64,000 bases of DNA from contig NC_091930.1 of NCBI RefSeq assembly GCF_041260155.1, positions 49,455,402 to 49,519,401 on the forward strand, in the 5' to 3' direction. The notes beneath the pieces are model-generated. The model worked only from the letters and a program-made list of their open reading frames with translations, was not told the DNA's origin and ran no database searches. How positions within the stretch are numbered: the first letter of the stretch is position 1; each line of letters begins with the position of its first letter. Origin of the DNA: Ptychodera flava (lineage: Eukaryota; Hemichordata; Enteropneusta; Ptychoderidae). A program made the position numbers and the translations under genes. Positions 19,782 to 60,736 of the stretch are shown piece after piece.

Positions 19782-20802
19782 CTAGCACTCACGCTCACTA
19801 TCGTACATGGCACATACACACTTTATCGAAGCGAAGAAACGAATTTCATCGCTTTAACTGGGCGAACGATAACCTCGGGGATAATTCTGTCCACCAGCAG
19901 TGTTACCAACCCAGGGTAGAAAATACGGCTAGTTTTCAATCGGATTCGAACCCACAACATACGGCATCAGTCGCCTAGCTGAGAGGCCACAGACAGAACC
20001 GCTCGGCTAAATCTCCACTCCCAAAAAAGAGTGGTTCAATAGCCGGCTAAGTTGTTACATTTTTCTGACTGAGACCGCTCAACACGTTGTAGAGTTCGTG
20101 AAGCACTCACGCTCACTATCATACATCGCACATACACACTTTATCGAAGCGAAGAAACGAATTTCATCGCTTTAACTGGGCTAACGATAACCTCGGGGAC
20201 AATTCTGTCCACCAGCAGTGTTACCAACCCAGGGTAGAAAATACGGCTAGTTTTCAATCGGATTCGAACCCACAACATACGGCATCAGTCGCCTAGCTGA
20301 GAGGCCATAGACGGAACCGCTCGGCTAAATCTCCACTCCCAAAAAAGAGTGGTTCAATAGCCGGCTAAGTTGTTACATTTTTCTGACTGAGACCGCTCAA
20401 CACGTTGTAGAGTTTGTGAAGCACTCACGCTCACTATCATACATCGCACATACACACTTTATCGAAGCGAAGAAACGAATTTCATCGCTTTAACTGGGCG
20501 AACGATAACCTCGGGGACAATTCTGTCCACCAGCAGTGTTACCAACCCAGGTAGAAAATACGGCTAGTTTTCAATCGGATTCGAACCCACAACATACGGC
20601 ATCAGTCGCCTAGCTGAGAGGCCATAGACGGAACCGCTCGGCTAAATCTCCACTCCCAAAAAAGAGTGGTTCAATAGCCGGCTAAGTTGTTGCATTTTTC
20701 TGACTGAGACCGCTCAACACGTTGTAGAGTTTGTGAAGCACTCACGCTCACTATCATACATCGCACATACACACTTTATCGAAGCGAAGAAACGAATTTT
20801 AT
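19782..20802 (-). repeat. Tandem array of a tRNA-derived SINE (three 318-bp units plus a partial)
   Basis: Units begin at 19785, 20103, 20421 and 20738 (landmark GCACTCACGCTCACTATC), giving a period of 317-318 bp, and are over 95 percent alike by eye. In reverse complement each full unit has a tRNA-like head: an A-box-like TTAGCCGAGCGGTT and a B box GGTTCGAATCC, about 60 bp apart, with a leucine/serine-like long variable region. An unrelated body ending near GCTTCGATAAAGTG follows. This fits a tRNA-derived SINE. Head-to-tail trimers suggest tandem amplification after insertion. The array lies in the intron between the RHIM-like and TRADD-N-like exons. Confidence 0.85.
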
Positions 20803-23073
20803 CGTTTGCAATATTACAAAGTACTCAAAAACAAGTGTATAACTTAAAAAGAAAAAAAAAGCAGTTGAGCTTACATTTGCAGATTCCAAAAGCATACTTC
20901 ACTAACCAATTATCCCAGATTAGTTCCGATCGTGTTGCTTTATCATTGATTTTAATACTGATTTTTGCTTTGATGAGAGAGCGCCATTATTGAGTCGTCA
21001 CTGGTAGATCTTCACATTATTATGAAGGCTCATCTCTACCTTCATGGACTGTGTAGACATGTACCAGCAATATTTATTGTTTTATGTTTCATGTCTATAT
21101 TTAAAATATGTTCACATTGGTGCTCTTTGAAAAAAACTGTTATCAATGTTTTGAAATTCAATTCATATCAAGATATGATAACAATACCCTCTGTGAGCTA
21201 TGTAAAGTCCCAAAATTGTCAAAGTGAGCGTGAAAGTGCTCGATCGAGCACTTTACGGGAATTGGCAAAGTTAGCTTTCAGAGATCTCCTGCGTGTATTA
21301 TTAAGTCCTTCGCATTAATGAAATATTCAGAATTTCACTCCTGTAAGTTGACAACTTTAAAGTCTGCTTCGGAACATCCTCATTCCAGAATGATTTTATC
21401 ACGCAAGTGAATTTCACCGGAATGGTGAATACCGAAAAAAATATTCGAGAACTTTTGTTGACGTACAAGTTGATTATTTCTTATACGTAGAGTATGCACC
21501 TAGGAGCGCTTGACGTTTCCTTCATGATTTAGAGTCAAAACTCGGATATTATTTCTTACTTCTCCTCCGACCTTATAATGAGGCATGATGGATACGATAC
21601 TGATACAGTCGATTTGCGATAAGATATGCAGGTCGACCAGGTATGCAGGCCAAGCAATATGAACTGTTGATCTGTTATGTGACAAGTGTTCAGTATAAAG
21701 TACGTAATAGGCTACGCATTCCACTGTATCTATAGCTGGTTTGCCTTTTTGTTTTTCACCCGACTATCACTTGGAGGAGGGCAATATACCTTCCTTGGAC
21801 ACTTCGCCAGTAAACGGTCACTTTATGACCTATGATCTTGGTCAAAGTCGAATGTCGGTCGCGTTTGTTAATATGTTGCCCTCCTCGTTCGTAACAGCAT
21901 AATGAACATGCGCTTTTCTAAGACTAAATATAGGCGAGTTCGTAGTGATTCAGAAGTTGTCAAAAGTTTCTGAAAAACATGCCTCGCAAAGCGTGTACGT
22001 AATGGTACTTGCAGCATCATATTAAGCACCAGCCCAATAGGTACTTGGAATTGCCGATGTGGTTCACCATGGTCTTTCTCTTCCATTATTTTTACGGTGA
22101 ACACTTGACGCACCTGTACTCATTTAGTGTTCACTTTGTCATTTTCTTTATCAACGCTCACGTTATCATTTTCAATGCTCAGTTGACGCTCAGTTTATCG
22201 ATTTTGGGCCCTTACATACTTGCCTCGATTGCGAATTCATTCCCAGGCTGTCTTTCAGAGGACTGGAAACTGTGGTTGTGATAAACTACGCCCTCTACGT
22301 CCTTAAAAGCTAATTACCATTCGTTTTAGTTACTGAAGTGGCAAGGAAACCCAATGTTTACGTTATCATTATATAACTAACTTGTACCAAAAGATGTTGC
22401 TCTTATCTTCTTAAGAAGTTACACTTCGAAATCTGTCGTAGTTATAATTAAAACTATCGGACTGGTGATCTCCTGTGAAATAGCCCCCCTCGATCATCTT
22501 CGTGAAAAGTAAGATTTCACCGACTTGTTATCCAACTTCATCAAAACCCTTTTCAAATCGGTTATAATTTAGTCCCCTTGAGTATAAAACAAAGTCACAA
22601 CATTGTGAAAACTATGAAACTAAACATGTATCCGTTTATGACAACGGGGATTAGCTCATATCTGCACACGTGTTTTAATATCATATGAATTATTGCACAA
22701 TCCAAAGTGCTGAAAAACAGAATTTCTTTATGAAGAATATTTTCATAGACATTAGATAACACTACTGTACTTCACAAAATATCTCTCCTGGTATTTCACT
22801 CAGCTAATGATTAATGCAGGGGAAATACATTTGTTGATGCGGTTCACTTACACTGGCAGCTCTTTTGGTGTTTTTCTGTTGTCTTTTTAATTTAACTTTG
22901 TGTTACTGACGTCTACAAATTTTCCGTGAGTCTGAATGTGAATTCCACAAACATAATAGGAACACCTTTTAGCCCGTGGTTCTCCTTTTATAGATTCTGA
23001 CTATTTATGCGCTGCTTCCCAATTGCATCACTGATGTCAACGCATTTAGCTTTTACACCCCTTCATTTTGCAG
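20803..23073. other. Intron of the RHIM/SAMD9-like gene
   Basis: AT-rich intron ending in a strong pyrimidine tract and TTTTGCAG acceptor at 23073. Open frames here (for example 21022-21318 and 22009-22281) lack splice support or familiar motifs. Confidence 0.55.
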
Positions 23074-23460
23074 AAATGCCCCTGAAAGCTGAGCTGAAGT
23101 ACAAGCATGACAAACAAGCTTCGGACATAATGTTAAGCCGCGCCCAAAAATGGTTTGATGATGCCGCAGACATCAAAAAGAACCCCGAGAAATATGAGAA
23201 AATCTTTAAAATATTTGAGGGCATAGGAGCCGTTCTCAAAGAGATTGCCCCTGGGTGCCTCGAATTTAAACTTAGCCTTCCAACAGCTACATCGCTTGTA
23301 TTACTCTGGGATCGGCACCAGGAATTCCTTCCAAGACAACTCGAAACAGTGATGATTACAGAGGAAGTCATTAAATCTGTGAATGGTCGACCACTGCAAA
23401 TATGTATTATCATGGATCAGATGATGTATAATAGGGGCTTACAATTTTTTGCAACTCAAG
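23074..23460 (+). CDS. TRADD-N-like domain exon of the SAMD9-like gene
   Basis: 387 bases, phase 1-1, between a strong TTTTGCAG acceptor and a GTAAGA donor. About 129 residues: a charged helical start (AELKYKHDKQASDIMLSRAQ), a helix through YEKIFKIFEGIGAVL, then the signature C-L-E-F-K-L, L-V-L-L-W and LETVMITEEVIKSVNG. This strand/helix pattern (G-C-L-x-F, a conserved L-W, and V-x-T-E-E) is what I recall of TRADD-N-like domains in invertebrate NLR- and STAND-type proteins, which act as adaptors in death and immune signalling. The whole module sits in one symmetrical exon between the RHIM-like and SAM exons. Family call is by motif memory and needs a profile search. Confidence 0.68.
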
Positions 23461-23985
23461 GTAAGATGTATCGGGAGAATTCATCAAATGATAGGCGAGC
23501 GGATTGCCTTATTTTATGAATCACTTGATAACTGCCATAATCGAACACCTATGTAAGTGTCCTTTACTGGAAATGTTTATTTCTCTAGGATCTGTCAGGA
23601 TATAATACCCTACTTAATTGCATTTTCGGAATTCCTTTTTTAGCTGAGCTTGTATCATTCTAGAAAAAAGCAAATAATCCTGAATGAATTTTGATACTAA
23701 ACTATTCAATGAGTAAAGCTCTTTCCATCGTGTCCTTGGAAGTGCAACATCCAAAAGCGGAGCAATAAATGCGACACAACAATCAGGCATACAGTTCACA
23801 TATAAAACCTGAAAAATAGGGATGAGAGGAAATTTTGATTGAGTTTCCATTTTGGGGCGCTTTGCATTGTCACTCATTTTTTTTATTTGAATTGACATCA
23901 TTTTTCAAGCAATGTTGCAGTTTTCAATATTTTCCGGTTACTTCATGTATATTCATGCCTTTTGTGCTTCTCTTTCAATAATAAG

Positions 23986-48378: not shown

Positions 48379-49083
48379 TAGCTGTGGAAACGCAGCTATC
48401 TTTTGGCGGGGTTGCGTGCGTCTTTATGTGGGTCAAAGGTCAACCCCGCCACGGATAGCTGCGGGCCAACTGCGAGCGAAAGTGGGTCTATTACGACGAC
48501 ACAACATGTATCGGAACTTTGAACGGCAAAATAAACCAAAGTGAGCGTAATTCAATAAAATGACCTATACCTGCCTGAACTCTGATTATTGCTCATTCCC
48601 TAACTCCTTTTGTGAACAAAATTTCTGGTTCGTTTACGTTATTTCGGCTGATTTTCCAAGGAGTACTCAAGATTTTCACTCCAGCAGCGAACTTTGACTT
48701 CTATTGATATGCTAATAAGGATCTGACCGAACGAGCGACGTCTGTATTAGCATATCAATAGAAGTCAAAGTTCGCTGCTGGAGTGAAAATCTTGAGTACT
48801 CCTTGGAAAATCAGCCGAAATTACGTAAACGAACCAGAAATTTTGTTCACAAAAGGAGTTAGGGAATAAGCAATAATCAGAGTTCAGGCAGGTATAGGTC
48901 ATTTTATTGAATTACGCTCACTTTGGTTTATTTTGCCGTTCAAAGTTCCGATACATGTTGTGTCGTCGTAATAGACCCACTTTCGCTCGCAGTTGGCCCG
49001 CAGCTATCCGTGGCGGGGTTGACCTTTGACCCACATAAAGACGCACGCAACCCCGCCAACAGATAGCTGCGTTTCCACAGCTA
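48379..49083. mobile_element. MULE-like/foldback element with 9-bp target duplication
   Basis: Two nearly perfect arms of about 330 bp face each other around a short centre near 48730. Ends are TAGCTGTGG and CCACAGCTA. ATTGGTCCC (48370-48378) and ATTGGTCTC (49084-49092) flank it, a 9-bp target duplication with one mismatch. Very long terminal inverted repeats plus a 9-bp duplication fit Mutator-like elements; foldback elements are the alternative. Arm identity by eye is about 98 percent, so insertion was recent. No transposase. The right end is 24 bp past the stop codon of the NHL gene. On that gene's strand the near arm contains AATAAA twice (plus-strand 48903-48908 and about 48927-48932). 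Confidence 0.88.
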
Positions 49084-49107: not shown

Positions 49108-49931
49108 TCACAAGTTCAGGATGCTAACCCGGTGCTTTTGGTGCTCTGTAACTGCGATAACGAACGGACTGATAACTGCCACGTCAATCGGTCCTTTGAG
49201 CTGCCCTTGACCTATCGTGTACAGAAACTTTCCCTCGCCTGTGTACTTGGCGATCCGGTCGTTCCAGAAGTCGCAGATATAGACATTGTCCTCCTGATCG
49301 ACGTCGATTCCGTAAGGCGTGACGACAGAACTGGCAGTGCTGAACGATGATTGCAGTCGCCCGTTGCAATCGTAGGTCTGTATGACTGGACGCCCGTTTC
49401 CTGGAACGATGACGTGCCCCTTGCTGTTGACGGTGAGGGCGCATGGATACTGCGTCTGACCCTCGGCGGCGCTGTAGGTCGCAAATTCTCCAAGGTGGCG
49501 ACCGTCGAGGGTGTACTTACGAATGCACGACCTACCCTCTTGGACATCGGTGACAAGCACTTGGCCTTGTGGAGTGACAGTGATTCCACGCGGCACAATC
49601 CCTTCCTTCGGGCCGAATATCCTTAATACTTGGTCGTACTCATTGCAGACGACGATTTGATTATTGCTGATGTCTGTAACGAAGAACTTGCCGTCGTCGC
49701 TGTAAGCGATCCCGAAAGGCATGAAGGGTCGAAGAAACTTCTTGAACTCTGACGTCACCTTGCACAGCCCGCGACGGTCGAGCACCTGCAGCCGATGGTT
49801 ATCCTTGTCGGAGATGACCATCTTCCCATGTTTGTTGATGATGATCCCACAGGGATGGTTAAACATGCCAGGCTTAGTACCTCTTGATCCAAAAGCAAGA
49901 GGTGTTCGTGCAATGACTGAGTGATTAACTG
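49108..49931 (-). CDS. NHL six-bladed beta-propeller, last exon of the WN-repeat/NHL gene
   Basis: Read on the minus strand: a TTACTTTTCAACAG acceptor, 274 codons, stop at 49108-49110. Six NHL blades are visible, each with the G-I/P-x-G...V-x-D-x-x-N-H/R-I/V pattern: FNHPCGIIINKHGKMVISDK, PFGIAYSDDGKFFVTDISNN, PRGITVTPQGQVLVTD, YPCALTVNSKGHVIVPGNG, PYGIDVDQEDNVYICDFWND and GPIDVAVISPFVIAVTE. NHL propellers at the C-terminus are typical of TRIM2/3/32/71-type proteins, where they bind protein or RNA. Here no RING or B-box is seen. The upstream exons encode eleven WN repeats, and entry phase (two bases) matches the exon at 50365. About 1,000 residues of this protein lie in the window; its N-terminus is not found. 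Confidence 0.9.
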
Positions 49932-50048
49932 CTGTTGAAAAGTAAAGAAACACAGTCACTAATTATTTTAACAACACACAGTAACGGTACCCATCTGTAT
50001 TTCTCAGAGTTTTCGTTGCATATGTGTCTATCTCAGTACTAACTGTAC

Positions 50049-50215
50049 GTATGTACGTATGTATGTATGTATGTATGTATGTATGTATGTATGTATGTAT
50101 GTATGTATGTATGTATGTATGTATGTATGTATGTATGTATGTATGTATGTATGTATGTATGTATGTATGTATGTATGTATGTATGTATGTATGTATGTAT
50201 GTATGTATGCAAGTA
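50049..50215. repeat. (TATG)n microsatellite
   Basis: About 40 tetranucleotide copies in the intron between the NHL exon and WN unit 11. Confidence 0.98.
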
Positions 50216-50364
50216 TGTAATATTATGTATGCCTATATTTAATGTCTGTCTGTCTCTTTTTGTGCTTACGTTAATTCAGAATGAATGCTAAAATTAGCAT
50301 ACCATGCCATTTGTATGCTCATTTCAAATGCGATGTGTTAATAAGGGAATTCTCTCGTAACTAC

Positions 50365-50556
50365 CTTGAATCTCTGGTAACAGTTTAACGCATCTCTGTC
50401 GCTGTTTCGCTGAAACCATCAAAGACATGGCGTCTAAGAACCATTTCCATTTGTCTTGATAGGTCTTCGTCTCTGGTACGGGTGTGTTCAGGCCTTTCTT
50501 GAGAAATTTTACACTCGTATGATCATAGGGCTTGGCGTTGGAGAAACTGCTACAAT
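50365..50556 (-). CDS. WN-repeat unit 11 exon
   Basis: Minus strand. CAAG/GTAGTT donor; the AACGTAG acceptor at 50557-50560 gives the phase 1-1 exon shared by its neighbours (50546 is an alternative that breaks phase). The core reads TPVPETKTYQDKWKWFLDAM, then LMVSAKQRQRC and LLPEIQ before the donor. It is a diverged copy: W-x-W-F-L-D-A-M replaces W-x-x-L-L-D-A-W-N. Confidence 0.75.
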
Positions 50557-50970
50557 CTACGTTAAACACGAAATTGGATTGATTACTTATGTCCGTTTTA
50601 TAGTGGTGATATTTATTAACCGCTCTGACTCGATAAGCACCGACCAATCAGAGAGCCCTTTTAAATAAAAAATCGTAAACCCAGAGAATAGGCCCACCTA
50701 TGAACTTGTGATTTCTTTCCCCTTGTATTGCAAAACAAAAGAAAAACAAACGGACCCCTTCGCTGTTTTGTTGCAACATTTGGTCTTGATAGGGTTTTGT
50801 CATCCGGGGAACTTGTCCAATCGTAGAGTGTGTAGTGAGCGATTTGTGTTAAAAGTCATTATGATACACTATTCATAAATAACTACCTCTATTCGTACAC
50901 GACTACTACCGGTACAGATACTAGAATCGTGTAATATTGCAATAAGCTTACTTAGCAAAATTTTACTGAC

Positions 50971-51159
50971 CTACAATTTTAACAGCAGTAGACGAGTAGT
51001 TTTCATAATCCAAGGCAGTCATCATCGTGTTCCACTTGTCAAGGACCTTCGACCACGCTTGATGATTTGTCCTCGGTATGAGAAGAGTGTTGTCGATAGC
51101 CGAGTCAGCGTCCATGGCATGGATGCGGTTGTCATCGCCTCTAAAGCGACCAAGAATTT
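50971..51159 (-). CDS. WN-repeat unit 10 exon
   Basis: Minus strand, phase 1-1, TTTTTCCTACAG acceptor and GTCAGT donor. After a linker with acidic residues, the core reads LLIPRTNHQAWSKVLDKWNT, then MMTALDYENYSSTAVKIV. It shows all consensus positions: I-P, W, L-D-x-W-N, M, L-x-Y-x-x-Y. Confidence 0.85.
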
Positions 51160-52089
51160 CTGTAGGAAAAAGAAAAATCCGTGACAGGAATGATCATTGG
51201 GGATTGGGTGATTGAAGTACTGTGTACCCGTGCATCGCAGTGACTCAAGCCACAAACGGCATACGATTCTTGTGGATGGATTCCATTCTCATAATTGTAT
51301 GAATCATCATCACTTGCATCATGATGGTAAGTTTGGAGACAAAGTGTTTCAAATCAATAGGACATGAATGAGGGAGCCATTGGGCTATGAGCCAGGGATC
51401 GAGTATTTATTTAGAGGCCCACAAAAAGCGGACCGGTTCGTATCTAAAAATTCGTGTCGACTAAATTTCACTCATATCGCTTGAAATAGAAATATTGTTA
51501 ACCGTAACTTTTGTATTGAAAATCAAAAATGACCCAACAACCGTTGCTAAAAATAAGCACGATAATGCATGCAAGAGTTAAAAGAAGAATATCATTTCAC
51601 CCGGCGGCCAATGATTATAGAATGATTCGGGATGTACTCATTTTACAGACCAAGACCATATTGCTCAAGATTGCATGATGTATTTGTAATTGATGATATT
51701 TAGTAATTAGAGGCCCGCCTCTGATCCAGCAACACCCTTCGTAACTTAGCAGTGCTGATAAAAACGCAAAAGTTAATTCAGTGACTGTTTCAAGGCTCTG
51801 GAAGAAGGATGTATCTAATATCAGGACCTAATCTCGCAATATTCTACGCTTTGTGTATGCGATTGATTTAAACTCCCATGTCATGTGACGGAATTTCAGA
51901 TGCCATGAAATACTCGTGAAGAGAACCTAGTGTTACGAAGATGTCTGAATTTCCTCATGGATTCATTATATTAAGAAACAGATTGCGATTACTTCATTCC
52001 GTGATTGGTTTGCGGTATACATGTCTAGTTGTCTTAACAATGGAGGTGATCTGCACTTCTTAATTGAATTTAAAAAATAAGAAACTCAC

Positions 52090-52317
52090 CATTCTTTACT
52101 TCGCCAGGTGACCTGATACTACTCTTCGGTTTCTCGTCTCCTAACTTCATGGCTTTCAAGATCCATCGTCTAAGTTCTCTGTCCCACACTTGGTACAGAT
52201 TCATGGGTATTAGTGTGATCACTGGGCCACTGCCTTCACTGTGTTCCGTATATGAGTCAAACTCTGCATCGCTCAGGTAGGTGTCTCTGATCGCACTTTT
52301 GAAGTTTTTCTCTAGTC
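52090..52317 (-). CDS. WN-repeat unit 9 exon
   Basis: Minus strand, phase 1-1, TTGTCAACAG acceptor and GTGAGT donor, 75 codons. It has a long acidic linker (YLSDAEFDSYTEHSEGSG), then ITLIPMNLYQVWDRELRRWI and a lysine-rich end without the L-G-Y step. Confidence 0.82.
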
Positions 52318-52605
52318 CTGTTGACAATCGCAGACAATTGTTAAGTTATTTATACAGAAATCGCGCCGTGTCATTCATTATATGATACGGTGTTGTGCAG
52401 GAAGGATGCCGTACATATACATGGCACATGGTTATGCGAATATCCATTAACGGTAGACGAATCTGATTTATCGAAGTACTATCGCCCAGGCATTAAAAAT
52501 GCCTACGTTGCACCATGTGGCTTCTATCGATTAACGTCGCCAAAAGATATTTCAAATTTCAAAGTTTTGGTCATCAAATTTCAAGCAGTGTGCAAAAGAT
52601 CTCAC

Positions 52606-52773
52606 CTTGGATGTTAGGAATGGTGGCAGCTAGCTTGGATTGACCAACTACCGTGACCATGGCGTTCCAGGTATCTCTCAGCTTGACCCAATGCTGGTAC
52701 ACCTTTTCAACGTCAGTGACAGCCTTGCTCGACCCACCGCCCCCCTGCTTTCCGTACACGTGATCCTTGAATT
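52606..52773 (-). CDS. WN-repeat unit 8 exon
   Basis: Minus strand, phase 1-1, ATCTTAAATTCAG acceptor and GTGAGA donor, 55 codons. A glycine-rich linker (GGGGSS) precedes VEKVYQHWVKLRDTWNAMVT and ends ATIPNIQ. The I-P of the usual first strand is replaced by a V-E-K step. Confidence 0.85.
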
Positions 52774-53442
52774 CTGAATTTAAGATAAGGAGACCGTTAG
52801 ACGTCATTGCGTAGTGTATGAGTCACTGTGTACTCACTTTTGAATACAAGTGCAAGCGCAAGTATTCGTCATATTAGGTAAGTACTGCTATGTAAATTAT
52901 TAATGACAGCGCCCTCTTTGCTCTACCCTATCATCAGTGTTACGGATGTTAACTTTGACACACTGGACGGCTGGCAAATTTCATCATTTTTTACATGACT
53001 CAGTTAGATTGATGCATCTGAATGTCAACATTTTTCACTGTCACCGTGCCGAGTTTTTGACAAACTTTATCGTACATTTGTACCCAAATGTAAAGCGGTG
53101 GTGGAAAAATCGACTAAAAGTATTTCCCTTTTGTCCATCATTGCTGGTATAGTGACCGCCACTACCCTCACCGTTTCTATCGATGTAAATCCGCACTATT
53201 GTTTTGCCAGTAGTAATTAATAGGGTAACTTCTTTTTCCTAAAGCCTGTTAAAATTGCAACATATAATAGCTTGTAGTGCGTGTTAAATCGACCACTTCT
53301 CACTCATGAACAAGTTTCGTTTATTGCCTATAGTCTGCCGTTCCGTGTACTTTAAATCGCCGACTGTTTTCTTCCACTGATTACTACTCAGTGATCGAAA
53401 AACTAACCTTACTTGACCGTTTGGTACTAACATCTCCCTTAC

Positions 53443-53543
53443 CTTGCACCTGTTTTAAACTTGTCTTGTAATCTTCGTATCCGAGGGCCATTAACATCTC
53501 ATGACCAGTTTCAAGTATGCTAGGCCATTGACCGTGAGCATGG
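53443..53543 (-). CDS. WN-repeat unit 7, second half (split unit)
   Basis: Minus strand, TCTTTATTCGGCAG acceptor and GTAAGG donor. It enters with one base and exits in phase 1. It encodes HAHGQWPSILETGHEMLMAL, then GYEDYKTSLKQVQ. Together with 55225-55351 it makes one unit, the only one interrupted by an intron. Confidence 0.78.
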
Positions 53544-53747
53544 CTGCCGAATAAAGAGAAGGGAATTTTTCATCCTCTAAGTGACTGCTAATATGAATAT
53601 TGCAAGATGAAAAATCTATATCTATGAGGGCGCACTTGTTAATTTTACAATGAGGTTCAATGCATTGACTCCGTTTAATATATTAAAGGCAAGCTTGAAA
53701 ATACCACAGTACGGATGACGTATGCATGAATACGTCAATCACATTAA

Positions 53748-54404
53748 CCCTTTGAACCCGGCACTGAAAAAAATGTCCGCTTGATGTCATAGGTCACAAG
53801 GCAGGGCTCGAAATTAGCGGTAGTCCCGCGTCCACAGACTACCAACTTTTCCCCGGGGCTACCAAAACCCATGAAATGGTAGCCCACATGGACTACCAAA
53901 GCCTGGGACATGAAATTACTTAGTTCGACATGATGTTGATCGCTTTTCGATGACCGACGCTCAAACAGTCAACCTAGCTGGACACAGAAAGGCCAGACTA
54001 TGGCTTTGTCATGCAAATTGAAAGGTGACAGTGCAGTCGAATTTGCTGCGACAAACTTTCATCGAAATATCATTACCTGAACTGATGTACTTGGATGACA
54101 GGCTTGGGAAATGATGGCCAATGAAAATTCATTTTCGTAGTTATTTAATCACAATGTATCAATCGCAATTAAATACAAATTATAAATAGCGTCCCTAGTA
54201 CTAAACCCAACACTCGCCTTGGCCGACTTTATCTGATACGTGTCAACATGAGTATTATGAATTATTTCCGAAAAAAAAATCTTCATTTAAACATGGGCTA
54301 CCAGACCTTGTCACTGGGCTACCAACTTCAGAAAATGGTAGCCCAATGGGACTACCAGTAGAAAAGTTAATTTCGAGCCCTGCAAGGGGTCAGGGTGCAA
54401 AGGG
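53748..54404. mobile_element. piggyBac-type MITE carrying a second nested element
   Basis: TTAA at both edges (53744-53747 and 54405-54408), outer ends CCCTTTGAACCC and GGGTGCAAAGGG. The insertion at 53802-54382 splits it. It lies in the intron that splits WN unit 7. Confidence 0.75.
53802..54382. mobile_element. Nested hAT-like element
   Basis: Ends CAGGGCTCGAAATTA and TAATTTCGAGCCCTG are perfect inverted repeats of the CAGGG type seen in hAT elements. Subterminal GGCTACCA and TGGTAGCC modules repeat at both ends. CAAGG flanks both sides, shorter than the 8 bp usual for hAT, so the class is tentative. No transposase frame. Confidence 0.7.
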
Positions 54405-55224
54405 TTAAGAAAAAGAATGAACTTCTATAGGTCAAATTGAGAACAATGAACGAAATTTAGCTGACTTGTATTTCTTATTCAATTTCTGTTATACTTAAAG
54501 CCCCAATAGTGGCAACTGTGTAATAAACCGATCTCAAAATATCTTCAGTTTCCGAGAACTTTCATTGAATAAGACCCATTAGAGACTGAAAAAGTGTGTA
54601 CACTGTTATAAGTGTGGAAAGTGGCATGTAATTTCAAACGTTTCCACATTATTGTAGATTTCCCGCCATTTTCAAAAACTAATCATATGACAGAGAAAAT
54701 AAAGATTACAACAACAAAATGTTGGCCATCATGCGTGGTGCATTCAAGTAAATAGCATCATGCTTGTTTCTTTTACTACCACGATGTGTATGTGCAGGAA
54801 ATACTGATTTTTACACTTTTCTGTGGGGTGCTATTTTATGAGTGCGGCCGCATCCGTTTATTATTCAACCTGTTAAAACGTCACGGTGTAGGCATGGTCC
54901 AAATCAGCGAGCAGTGATACGTCTATACACGTCCTTCAATTAGCACGTTTACACGAACCAACTTTGGTTTGAAAATAAAATCATGATAATAATTCTTAAA
55001 ATTAGCAGCTATTGGGGCTTTAATGATAACCGTTTATGTGCCAATCTAACTGAATGTTATTTGAACATATTAAATTAAGCAATATAAATTGGTCTCTTCT
55101 TCATGAACTTCAATTTAACGGACGGTACATTTCTTAGGATAAACTACATAAGTCACTGATAAACACACTTTTGAGGATGACAAAATAGGAATTGGGATTC
55201 AACGTGGAACCTACGCAAACTTAC

Positions 55225-55351
55225 TTCAACCAGTCGGTCAATACCAGTTCAGGAATGCTGATGAAGTGATCGCTATCGTCGCTGTTTTCGATGTAAGACA
55301 TGCAAACTCGTCTCCTTCTGGCAGTAAATGCAGTTTCCGGCATCTTTAACA
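55225..55351 (-). CDS. WN-repeat unit 7, first half (split unit)
   Basis: Minus strand, CATTACAG acceptor and GTAAGT donor. It enters with two bases and exits with two, matching 53443-53543. A basic then acidic linker (TARRRRV, ENSDDSD) leads to HFISIPELVLTDWL, where the intron falls just after the first tryptophan of the unit. Confidence 0.78.
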
Positions 55352-55486
55352 CTGTAATGGAATAATAAACATATTGTTAAGTTACCGACCATCCTATACA
55401 CCTATCTACCTACCTACTACTACCTAACTACATACCTACCTACTACCTACATACATAAAATACATAATATATATACATACACACAC

Positions 55487-55612
55487 ACACAACACACACA
55501 TACATACATACATACATACATACATACATACATACATACATACATACATACAGACAGACAGACAGACATACAGACAGACAGACATACAGACAGACAGACA
55601 GACAGACAGACT
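55487..55612. repeat. (CATA)n / (CAGA)n compound microsatellite
   Basis: CA-rich start, (CATA)n, then (CAGA)n in the intron between units 6 and 7. Confidence 0.97.
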
Positions 55613-55730
55613 AACTTACTGAAACTCATGCGATGACTCTTTTATGATGAAAGTATACATACTGAAGATTGTTGCTTATAGTCTTCGAGCGAAAAAATAC
55701 ATAAAAAGATACAACACCAAAATCACTCAC

Positions 55731-55916
55731 AGTTTAACCTTTGGATGTAAGTTGTCTTGCTACCGTATCCAAGAGTAGAAATCAGAGAGTTCCAGGCGTC
55801 TAAAGCTTTGAACCACATGTCATGCAGTGTCTTGGGCATCAAGATAATCTTCTTAAGTTTGTCTTCAACGTCTGCCTCTGATTGGTCCACACTGTGACTT
55901 TGGTCTTCTTCCAAAT
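55731..55916 (-). CDS. WN-repeat unit 6 exon
   Basis: Minus strand, phase 1-1, CTACGCAG acceptor and GTGAGT donor, 61 codons. An acidic linker (DLEEDQSHSVDQSEADVED) precedes IILMPKTLHDMWFKALDAWN, then LISTLGYGSKTTYIQRLN. It is one of the two units closest to the consensus. Confidence 0.88.
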
Positions 55917-56273
55917 CTGCGTAGTTCATGAAGAGGCAACATATTGAGAAATCGCCAAAATTTATTTGTTCGATAAGGTCAGGTATATAAATCTGTAGCA
56001 TCGTTCTTTTAAGGGACCGTCAACTAAACGAACTCATTTTATCGGCCATAACACGTCGATTCTGGTAGTTTCATCAATAAATCATGATCTTTGTTATCAT
56101 ACTAAAGCAATCTTACAAACATGTTTCTTCTCGGCTAAAACGTGCATTAATCAAACACTCGTTTCATGCAAATAAACTATTGTACGGTCAAAATGTATGC
56201 AATATACTAGTATCATCCAGGGATATTATCTGAGGGGTGCAACAGCGCCCTCATGCTGTTGGCTTTACCTTAC

Positions 56274-56522
56274 CTGGTAATTTAGGAAGCGTCAATCGAT
56301 ACTGCCTGTAACCGAGGCACGACACCATCACGTTCCACGCGTCGAGCAATTTCCTCCATTCACTGTACGCAGCCTCTGGGACTGACATCATGACTTGGCT
56401 TGCATCGTTTGCGACCGTGTCCTCCATGGGTGTCGGCGGCTTGTTCTGCGCATGCTCGTCTACTGGGGCGTCGTTGTTCTGGAGTCGTCGCGGTGGCTTT
56501 TCATAGGAACTAAACCTTTTAG
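56274..56522 (-). CDS. WN-repeat unit 5 exon
   Basis: Minus strand, phase 1-1, CTTTCTATTATTAG acceptor and GTAAGG donor, 82 codons. It has a long proline-rich linker (KPPRR, NKPPTPMED), then MSVPEAAYSEWRKLLDAWNV and VSCLGYRQYRLTLPKLP. It is the best consensus copy. Confidence 0.88.
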
Positions 56523-56913
56523 CTAATAATAGAAAGGCGGAAGTTGAGTGAGTGTTGATAGCGCAGCGTAGTTTTGAAATGTGCAGATACGGAACACAGT
56601 CCGGAATAACTATAAATTTCAGAGGCACTTTACAATGATTTACCGCCAAAAATAAACTGAGTACAGTTGCTGCGATGTTAGGATACCATGGCAATGATCA
56701 CATATTTACCGACTTATTATTATTTCTTGAAACATGATACTGGCATGTTTTTTATGTCTAGAAGGCCTTTTTGTTTACATATAGATATTATTTTTCCTGT
56801 TTCGGGTGTCCTTTCCGTCTTTCCTATGGTCACTGCTTGGGTTCTGCATACTGAGTGTCCATCCGTTGCCGGTTGTCCGGTCGATTTGATTCCCACTATA
56901 ACCCATGACCTAC

Positions 56914-57096
56914 CTTGCACCTTCGAAATCGACGCCTTGGACGAGATATTTATCTTACAGCCTTTCAGTAATTTCTCCCAGGCCACGCATATCGTCAGGG
57001 GCATTGGTATCGTGATGTCGTCTTTGAGGTCTGTCTTTGTGAGAACCACCGATTTCCTTACATCGCGGCGGTCGACTCTCGGCGTCTGCTCGTTTC
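56914..57096 (-). CDS. WN-repeat unit 4 exon
   Basis: Minus strand, phase 1-1, CTCGTCCTAG acceptor and GTAGGT donor, 60 codons. The core reads ITIPMPLTICVAWEKLLKGC and ends SISKVQ. It keeps the first strand and first W but not the second W or L-G-Y. Confidence 0.82.
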
Positions 57097-57469
57097 CTAG
57101 GACGAGGAGGAGAAAAAAAAGTTTGCTTTGCTACGTGTTGGCAGTGTAATTCAGATAAATTCAGCATGTGTTGTTACCAACAGTTAAAATAATCCTACAG
57201 TCCGCTCCTTAAAGGGACAGTCTCCAATCCCTGGTTTCCGAAAACCCTATCCTAGACATGCGTTTACCGAAACATGGTCTCACTATTGTCATACTCGAGC
57301 TGAAGTCGGTATATGTTTTGTCAAAGTTTAATCGATAATAGTGAATTTTAAAATGCCCTTTGGTTAAATGAAAGTGGATAATATGTTCCCTTCTATTTTG
57401 TTTTGACTAATTTTCACTCTAAAGTCATTTTCACGATCATACCCGACCTTCACACATCACCCAACATAC

Positions 57470-57628
57470 CTGGGCAAATGCACAGGGCGGCCATATTGTT
57501 TTCAGCCTGCTGTGACGTAATAGCCAGGTCCCAGTCGTCGACTGAGTTACACCATTGCTGGTATATTGTGCTTGGCAACGGTTTGAAAGCAGAGTCCTTA
57601 CACTCGTCAGTTTCGAGTGTTCCATATC
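57470..57628 (-). CDS. WN-repeat unit 3 exon
   Basis: Minus strand, phase 1-1, TTGTTTCTTTCAG acceptor and GTATGT donor, 52 codons. The core reads FKPLPSTIYQQWCNSVDDWD. Both tryptophans are kept; the C-terminal helix is altered (AENNMAALCICP). Confidence 0.82.
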
Positions 57629-57850
57629 CTGAAAGAAACAACGCGTAATTACATGTATATATCACTGAGATCACGTCATAAACGCCTGAAAGGTCAAAAG
57701 TTCGTACATTTCAGGTTAAAAGTAGTATACACATATTGACTGGGCATGAGCGTCACAGCATGCATTTGTTGCCCAAGGTCCTTAGAGTGCCCCAAAACTG
57801 TTACAGGAGGCCGTGTGCCGACGGAAACAGACTGCTATCGGACGACTCTC

Positions 57851-57953
57851 TAGCCTAGATTGCTTTTCCCTTCGCTTGCCTCCGTACCTCCGTCTTCACA
57901 CGGTAGTGAAGACAGAGGTACGGAGGCAAGCGAAGGAAAAGCAATCTAGGCTA
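57851..57953. mobile_element. 103-bp palindromic element with perfect 9-bp target duplication
   Basis: Arms of about 46 bp (TAGCCTAGATTGCTTTTCC outermost) are almost perfect complements around a centre near CACACGGTAGTG. ACGACTCTC flanks it exactly on both sides (57842-57850 and 57954-57962). The TAG...CTA ends and 9-bp duplication match the element at 48379-49083, though the arm sequences differ. Confidence 0.88.
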
Positions 57954-57962
57954 ACGACTCTC

Positions 57963-59054
57963 ATGCCCAAGGGGAAACAAACGTATGTTGTTGTCCGAAA
58001 TATAGCCAGTCAATATGTGTTATGTAATACACCCCGTCAAATCTTCTCATAAAATATCGAGAAGTTCCTCAGCTATCATCCCTATCGTCTCAGTTGCAGA
58101 CGATAGGGTCATCTCTTCACGCGTTTTACAATGTGTGCATCGTCAAACTCTCCCACTTTATAGCTATTGCAAACTGTTTACCGGTTAACAGTTTCGGAAA
58201 CTGTTGACCGGTACATGTATCTTGCTCTTTGCATGTATCAGCATAAAAAATGGTGCATCAAACATGAACATAAATTAACGAATCACAATGTAGAGTTATA
58301 TAAATTGTTAACAGCAGCAATGTATTCAAGTCACCGTATTTCACATCCTTTCCTCACTGACGAACGCTTTCAGCGAGTTTGCATATTCAGACCCGATTTC
58401 TTTATGCACTTCTAATCATTTCTATCTCGTTGATACTCAGGCTGAGAACCAAGAATGTTGAAAAGTGGCACATAGGATTGTTGGATAAGTGGGTTTGTCA
58501 AAATGAAACAAAATATAGTTACGTGCAAAATTATGATCTATTGAACACATCTACATGTAAAAGCGTATATTATAAAAACATTCACACCCATTATCACCAC
58601 TTATAACAATGGGTTAGGGTCAAACCATAGCTGTGAAGGGGTTAAAATTATGTCGGAGTTTACGACCAGTTAGCCATATTGAATGGACGTAGATATATCA
58701 ATCTTATGTTTAATATGACGATAACCATCATGCCTTGCAGTAAATTTCGGCACCACGTGCCCAATCTAGACCAACTCATCACTATCTCGATGAAAACCAA
58801 ACTGACGATTGAAAACCCGTCATAAATCTTAGTTTCACTTCCTACCATAATTTATTTCCATTAATTTGATACAGGCAGAGCAGTCTGTTCACGCTGAGAT
58901 TTTCGTTGTGTACGGCGAGCTTACTTATATATTCTGAAGTAGTATAATCTGTATATCCATTATACTGCTCATAGACTCAACTACTTACTTATATCGACCC
59001 ACACTTAACCTTTAATCAGATGAAATATTTGGTTCCTACGGGCACAGAGAGTAC

Positions 59055-59056
<2 letters not shown>
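57963..59056. other. Intron of the WN-repeat/NHL gene
   Basis: Between unit 3 (low side) and unit 2. A short hairpin (ACGATAGGG type) lies at about 58078-58110; otherwise AT-rich with no exon seen. Confidence 0.45.

Positions 59057-59107
<51 letters not shown>
59057..59107. repeat. (TA)n microsatellite
   Basis: About 50 bp of TA repeats, about 40 bases downstream (minus strand) of the unit 2 donor. Confidence 0.97.
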
Positions 59108-59109
<2 letters not shown>

Positions 59110-59148
59110 CACATATATAATGTTTATCACGGTGCAAAGACTCGATAC

Positions 59149-59343
59149 CTTTACTTTTCACCGTCGAAGAGTGCTGCTTCGTTTCTTCGATGGCCGTTTT
59201 GACTGATTCCAATATGGTACACCATCGTTGATAGGTCCCCTTCGGTACCATGACAACGCGCCTGGTTTCCTTGCCATTTCCCGTCCTGTAATCTGATTGG
59301 TTTATTGAAATTCTCCTAGAGGTGCTGAGAACACGCTTCCTCT
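59149..59343 (-). CDS. WN-repeat unit 2 exon
   Basis: Minus strand, phase 1-1, CGACCTTTCAG acceptor and GTATCG donor, 64 codons. A basic linker (RKRVLSTSRR) is followed by RRVVMVPKGTYQRWCTILES; the second half is diverged (TKQHSSTVKSK). Confidence 0.82.
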
Positions 59344-60511
59344 CTGAAAGGTCGATATAAGCCAACATGAAACTTCGGCAGGGTTTCTGTTTACATTTGA
59401 CAGTCGGGATAAAGGGGGTCGCATTACTGATTTTATGAAGAGATAAACTCAGTTCACTGTATGATTCATTCGTCTCAATGTCATTGTACTGAGACTGTAT
59501 GATGACACCTTAAACGTCCCATTTGTTTATCAATGGACCGTTCACTTAGTCCGCTAGCAGGGTTTTCATCTCGAAAACATGTATTGCGCTGTTACACTGT
59601 TCAATCATGATGAGTTAAACACCAGTCTTTAATATCTTCCCTAACATTGTGCCACTTCTTTGGTCGTTATATCATTCCCGAAAGGTCTTCTTTGAACCAT
59701 AGTTGCCAACGACTCATGGTGTATAACCCTACCGCAATGATACACTGATGTTTGCGGATTCTGTTGTGTGTTAAAATAATCCCTAAAGTTTCTAGGCTGC
59801 AGTAGCGCGCCGCCGTCGATTGCTACCCTTGGTCCTATGGTTGACGTTGTTTAATAAAACTACTTTTCAGCAAGCTAAGGGGTGTTGAAGAGCATACAAA
59901 GTTAGCTGTCTCTACAAGCATTTCGTTAACATTCAATGATGTTTTTCTATTAATAGCAGCTTCTCCATCACTATCTGGACTCAATTCTGTTCTCAATAAA
60001 ACAATGCACCGTACACTTTCCGTAATACATTAAGATATTGTACGTGATACCGGAACAAGAAAAAACTTAAACATTTGTATAAATTAACATACAATAGGCA
60101 TGCTTATAGATAGAATAGAAATCCCATTGCGGTTATAACTTCGAACTTGTATTGTGTCTGTTAATTTTCAATTATTTTTGATCTTTCATAAGTGATATTT
60201 TTTACTCCCGGAAAAGCATAGAGTTCACCTTGTCAACACAGTTCACATGTGTATAACTTCCGTCATTATTGGTAAATTTTACAAATGAATTTTGATGCGG
60301 GACAGAATCCATTTCTTATATTATGCTATGAATAATTATTTCATATTGTTCAAAATGCAATGAGTCGGCAAGGCTAATAAGATACTTTGTATTTAACCAC
60401 ACTATAAGGAGTAAAAGAAGAAAATGCATATTTTCTTCAGCAAATTCACGGTAATGATATCAAAATTTACAGTTATTGTGCCCTTTTTTTTGGAAATTTT
60501 AACTCGCTCAC
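59344..60511. other. Intron between WN units 1 and 2
   Basis: AT-rich, no exon or repeat recognised. Confidence 0.45.
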
Positions 60512-60736
60512 CTGACAACTTGGCGATACTGGCCAGGTATGAAGCAAACTGTTTGACCGCAGCGATGACAATCAAGGTTTCCAATATCCCCGCCCATTGC
60601 TCATGTCTGGCCCCGGGCACAGTGACGTACAGTCTGTCACGGGTTGCCTCTCTTTCGTTCACTTTCTCGTGTTTGCTGGTTTGCTTGTCGCTGTCGTCAC
60701 TTTTCGTCGTGGAGGTAGTAGATCCTTTTTTATTTC
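60512..60736 (-). CDS. WN-repeat unit 1 exon (first seen in window)
   Basis: Minus strand, phase 1-1, TTTGTTCCGTTGCAG acceptor and GTGAGC donor, 74 codons. A Ser/Thr/Lys linker is followed by YVTVPGARHEQWAGILETLI, then a hydrophobic helix (ASYLASIAKLS). Entry in phase 1 shows at least one more exon upstream (higher coordinates), not identified. Confidence 0.82.

Follow-up and report, generated by a model that had tools for sequence, protein, structure and literature searches.

What does a run of eleven tandem repeat exons, capped by an NHL beta-propeller, encode? The question is posed by a 64,000-nucleotide stretch of the acorn worm Ptychodera flava (contig NC_091930.1, forward-strand positions 49,455,402 to 49,519,401), the whole of which we call the window, with coordinates counted from its first letter. 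Between 60736 and 49108 lie thirteen exon pieces on the minus strand, which make up eleven repeat units and, after them, the NHL exon. The repeat is genuine and the exon calls are accurate. GT follows all 12 of the listed 3' exon ends, at the places given by an earlier sequence-only reading of this DNA, and the acceptors end in AG. Exon lengths are multiples of three and, as that reading also held, borders are phase 1-1, the exception being unit 7, which is cut into 127 and 101 nucleotides by an internal phase-2 intron. When unit 7 is taken whole, all eleven units have phase-1 introns on both flanks. Spliced together, the units and the NHL exon give 999 codons in a single open frame, closed by one stop; this splice was built with acceptors 53519 and 49931, and the alternatives 53543 and 49928 are likewise in frame. 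The spliced array matches an NCBI P. flava "uncharacterized protein", isoform X2 (P0001, 1144 residues), with 99% identity over the query. P0001 joins the same array exons to the NHL exon, and the proposed joining of array and propeller thus appears sound as far as the NCBI gene model allows.

The units were then judged as a repeat. In a leave-one-out profile, which compared each unit exon (for unit 7, the core) with 500 shuffles of its own core, ten of the eleven units scored above all shuffles; unit 4 alone was weak, its score being equalled by 15 of 500. The P. flava cores are 24% identical to each other on average (range 11-36). A core profile made from 19 cores of two species (11 from P. 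flava and 8 from a second acorn worm, Glandiceps talaboti) returned eleven matches in the six-frame translated window, all on the minus strand and with a weakest E value of 9.6e-9, and these eleven are themselves profile members. No twelfth unit was found in the six-frame window with this profile, the next match having E 0.7.

The second species came from a search with the NHL part, which found an uncharacterized G. talaboti protein of 795 residues (LOC144440146 isoform X2, here P0002) whose NHL is 59% identical. The two animals belong to separate families, P. flava to the Ptychoderidae and G. talaboti to the Spengelidae. P0001 and P0002 share 45% identity over 835 columns and are collinear from unit 4 through the NHL to the stop. 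The P0002 model seems to start inside its counterpart of unit 3, whereas P0001 has units 1-3 and an N-terminus upstream, and the comparison covers units 4-11 and the NHL. By region, identity between the species is 60% in the NHL, 45.5% in the cores (137/301 identical columns) and 34% in the linkers (68/198), so the linkers, earlier described as variable, are not hypervariable. A core profile restricted to P. flava scored 181 bits against the P0002 array, compared with 9.6 for the best of 200 shuffles. Among single P0002 stretches, 6/9 reached E 1e-5 or better and unit 4 reached 1e-4; the weak ones were the unit 3 remnant (E 0.05) and unit 11 (E 0.02).

Position within the array is conserved as well. 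Each of the eight G. talaboti units scores highest against the P. flava unit that shares its position; by percent identity, units 4 and 10 of G. talaboti are marginally nearer P. flava unit 5 than their own positional counterparts. A tree of the 19 cores recovers all eight shared units as sister pairs (support 0.79-0.98), an outcome that none of 2000 label shuffles attained. Mean identity is 42% between positional counterparts (28-59) and 25% between other between-species pairs (9-50). Because 8/8 pairs are positional sisters, the unit duplications are older than the split between P. flava and G. talaboti. In the two species compared, units 4-11 show no gain, loss or reordering since that split. 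Symmetric exons would permit units to be gained or lost in frame, as had been proposed; such turnover was not seen, all eight counterparts having been kept, and the array has been stable since before Ptychoderidae and Spengelidae diverged.

The core has no significant counterpart among the families searched, which bears out the statement that it could not be matched to a known domain. When ten of the eleven units were scanned singly against Pfam, three families were hit by one unit each, with a best E of 0.046. On whole P0001, Pfam gave a single match in the array, to CNTF at residues 435-500, which is below the cut-off (E 0.027). With the core profile, the best match to any PDB chain had E 0.21, and NCBIfam returned propeller matches together with one sub-cut-off match in the P0002 array (E 0.051).

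In contrast to the array, the C-terminal exon is readily assigned. It matches PF01436 (NHL) in four stretches at E 3.5e-20, and its best PDB sequence matches are TRIM71 NHL chains at E 2.6e-42. A Foldseek search with the P0002 model listed matches that align about 250-350 columns and are mostly NHL-like propellers; the ten best rows are all NHL domains (TMt 0.75-0.80), Thin, TRIM2 and Brat being the best fold matches and TRIM71 also standing among the matches listed. The protein therefore resembles TRIM-NHL proteins (TRIM71/LIN41, TRIM2/3, Thin, Brat) in carrying a C-terminal NHL propeller after a helical region. It differs from them in that tandem exons encode its helical part, and in that RING, B-box and filamin domains were not found in P0001 or P0002 by Pfam up to E 10 (P0002 may lack its N-terminus). 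At that threshold P0001 yields NHL, three other families in the propeller region and the sub-cut-off CNTF match, and P0002 yields seven families, all within the NHL region. Since neither RING nor B-box was found, the protein is not a TRIM on the present models.

Structure prediction suggests what a unit may look like. We ran AlphaFold2 on unit 5, which has the top leave-one-out score, with nine other units alongside. The model has one helix, at residues 49-77, and not the two that had been expected from spacing. Taken in blocks of residues, the predicted local distance difference test score (pLDDT) lies at 84-95 across residues 41-70, drops to 69 and 53 beyond them, and is 54-65 in the linker. 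The full-length P0002 model is of low confidence in the array, where pLDDT is mostly below 50 and folds cannot usefully be compared; it places a helix at 8/8 cores, with more helices between some of them. A short strand, which the sequence-only reading also expected, directly precedes the helix in two of the eight units of this model, and such a strand is possible. Averaged over the 19 cores, hydrophobicity shows a helical periodicity, strongest at 100-110 degrees per residue, with p 0.013 by permutation over a hand-chosen stretch. Hydrophobic peaks fall at the core tryptophan (position 0) and then at positions 3/4, 7, 10/11 and 14, a heptad-like spacing, and the conserved stretch, with its W/L/W/M-V spacing, is about 20 residues long. 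Each unit is predicted to form one amphipathic, tryptophan-rich helix following a linker.

The N-terminus of P0001 adds further features. A search of the window with its first 137 residues turned up nothing with an E value of 1 or lower. They are strongly basic, with an isoelectric point (pI) of 10.8, and contain a weak partial twelfth unit at residues 111-127 (E 5e-4). P0001 has no signal-peptide-like start: the most hydrophobic 10-residue window of its first 40 residues averages -0.53. The 5' ends of both P0001 and P0002 rest on gene models.

We favour an intracellular multivalent scaffold, a reading whose chances we consider evenly balanced and which is built on three features: the pattern of the helices, a start unlike a signal peptide, and the NHL. 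Namely, eleven (perhaps twelve) tryptophan-rich helices would follow a basic N-terminus and precede a six-bladed NHL propeller. Each helix would pack with its W/L/W face (positions 0, 3/4, 7, 10/11 and 14) buried in contact with a partner protein or with other units, and the C-terminal propeller would dock a client. The intracellular location, the packing of units with themselves or a partner, and the function are what we infer from these features. Several observations weigh against this scaffold. Charge differs between P. flava and G. talaboti (NHL pI 8.8 versus 6.4; array pI 8.7 versus 6.5), which gives no clear sign of a shared client. No packing or assembly can be read from the P0002 model, with its low array pLDDT. 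The helix of unit 1 is hydrophobic, with a mean of 1.59 over 19 residues, which we take to be near the usual threshold for a membrane span, making a membrane role possible. Conservation is informed by two species only. Finally, most class 1-1 exon modules are extracellular according to the accessible part of a survey of metazoan exons (PMC8001218).

Among the alternatives, the one that holds up best is that the tail is disordered and the cores serve in it as short linear motifs, which fold on binding and act through avidity with no folded scaffold. WxxL-type docking motifs, one example, have the form W-x-x-[LIV], and this pattern stands at the core tryptophan in 7/11 P. flava and 4/8 G. talaboti units; in addition, the linkers are low in predicted confidence, as is the full-length array. 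However, the pattern is broken in 8/19 units, the conserved stretch extends over about 20 residues rather than four, and the unit model contains a confident helix. We consider motif docking unlikely, though it deserves to be kept in mind.

A role as an RNA regulator is somewhat less likely again. On this view the NHL would be an RNA-binding domain like that of LIN41/TRIM71 or Brat. The array would either recruit effectors or take over from the TRIM coiled coil in dimerising the protein. The TRIM71 chains at the top of the PDB matches, the presence of Brat, TRIM2 and TRIM71 among the best folds and the basic N-terminus are in line with this idea. We compared the propeller with seven RNA contacts of zebrafish LIN41 (R564, R581, R611, K628, D629, Y658 and R676), as given in the accessible part of the source (PMC5908797); blade pieces were picked by hand and the numbering offset was fitted, after which all seven letters agreed. 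In six blade rotations, and in both acorn worms, at most 2/7 contacts were matched, which makes LIN41-type stem-loop binding unlikely; Brat-type contacts lie outside this comparison. The net charge of the NHL, not being conserved between the species, is a further point against RNA binding.

An extracellular or membrane-anchored modular protein, with its signal peptide on an unannotated upstream exon, we consider improbable. The array resembles the class 1-1 modules of Metazoa, as described in the accessible part of the same survey (PMC8001218), in its symmetric phase-1 borders and its tandem arrangement of one unit per exon, except for unit 7, and such modules are mostly extracellular; the hydrophobic helix of unit 1 would also fit. 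In contrast, the extracellular modules of that source are mainly beta, whereas the acorn-worm units are predicted to be helical, and the NHL fold is closest to TRIM-NHL proteins. P0001 also starts without a hydrophobic stretch, but this point is tempered by the 5' ends being gene models, of which P0002 apparently begins inside unit 3. Last comes the reading that the array is an artefact of annotation or that unrelated exons resemble each other by chance in their helix patterns, which is hardly credible: the weak score of unit 4 and the low average identity of P. flava core pairs speak for it, but ten of eleven units exceed all shuffles, the exons join into one open frame, and the 8/8 positional counterparts in a second acorn-worm family already contradict it.

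How far, then, does the unit extend beyond these two animals? The protein searches require shared five-residue words. The array search returned P0001 alone from 7452 scored candidates, the NHL search returned 20 proteins, including P0001, P0002 and a coral TRIM45-like protein (P0018), and a joint P0001/P0002 profile search returned P0002 and the NHL-bearing P0021 from 7993 scored. Across the 21 retrieved proteins, the unit profile matched P0001 and P0002 only, the best of the other 19 having E 0.74. No second host gene for the unit was found among these 21 proteins, a weak negative, as are the database negatives in general, since the array search missed P0002 and the joint-profile search missed P0001. 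Among the open-licence papers listed, no title or opening of an abstract describes the gene. Provisionally, the unit and the gene seem to be confined to two hemichordates, both acorn worms, within a limited search that was without Saccoglossus, Schizocardium and echinoderms.

Alongside the scaffold reading, we tentatively propose a history that is possible but doubtful at present: the repeat domain might have originated through duplication of exons within Hemichordata (or Ambulacraria) and been frozen thereafter, so that eleven or more non-equivalent tryptophan-rich helices assemble in fixed order, giving an all-helical architecture of a new kind on top of an NHL propeller. If this were true, a repeat domain, perhaps lineage-restricted, would be missing from the Pfam copy searched, and symmetric exons would coexist with a fixed copy order in two families. 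The locus would then offer a testable case of how duplicated exons give rise to a new repeat protein that afterwards stays frozen, and it would show an NHL propeller that lacks the usual RING/B-box front end.

The individual exons, all on the minus strand and with their repeat units all present in P0001, are as follows. Units 1 to 3 lie at 60512..60736 (bounded by AG and GT, with an open frame), 59149..59343 (donor GT) and 57470..57628 (supported by its borders); each is phase 1-1 and none of the 500 shuffles reaches its score. The acceptor of unit 2, 59343, was picked among five in-frame candidates, and P0001 agrees with it. Unit 4 (56914..57096, phase 1-1) has the weakest core, and its G. 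talaboti counterpart is its sister with support 0.89. The remaining phase 1-1 exons, each with 0/500 shuffles reaching its score and the same-numbered G. talaboti unit as sister, are unit 5 (56274..56522, the one-helix model; support 0.88), unit 6 (55731..55916; 0.97), unit 8 (52606..52773; 0.98), unit 9 (52090..52317; 0.89), unit 10 (50971..51159; 0.79) and unit 11 (50365..50556; 0.88). Unit 7 begins with exon 7a (55225..55351; 127 nucleotides, phase-1 acceptor and phase-2 donor) and ends with exon 7b (53443..53543). For exon 7b, acceptor 53519 aligned without an insertion and in frame; it was dropped in favour of 53543, which P0001 uses (HAHGQWP) and which is the better choice given a similar P0002 stretch, AAHKEWSN. 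The NHL exon, with the stop codon, occupies 49108..49928 (or 49931).

Two features adjoin the NHL exon. A tandem acceptor, CAGCAG at 49929-49934, precedes it; both uses are in frame, P0001 takes 49928, and the upstream choice (49931) would add one alanine at the junction of array and NHL. Downstream, a foldback at 48379-49083 consists of two 339-nucleotide arms with 3 mismatches and a 27-nucleotide gap, has no third copy in the window, and ends 24 nucleotides from the stop codon of the NHL exon. It lies perhaps within the 3' untranslated region of the array-NHL gene, where it could make a long messenger RNA hairpin.

Elsewhere, scans of the window with Rfam and ARAGORN returned no matches. A 172-residue open frame on the plus strand at 23001-23516 had no significant Pfam match (best E 0.08). 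A plus-strand open frame at 34040-34408 matches PF00027, the cyclic nucleotide-binding domain, at E 4.6e-8, suggesting a further gene on the strand opposite to the array. The window also holds two tandem arrays: at 1363-2627 a 44-bp unit is repeated about 29 times (97% matches), and at 19784-20804 a 318-bp unit about 3 times (98%).

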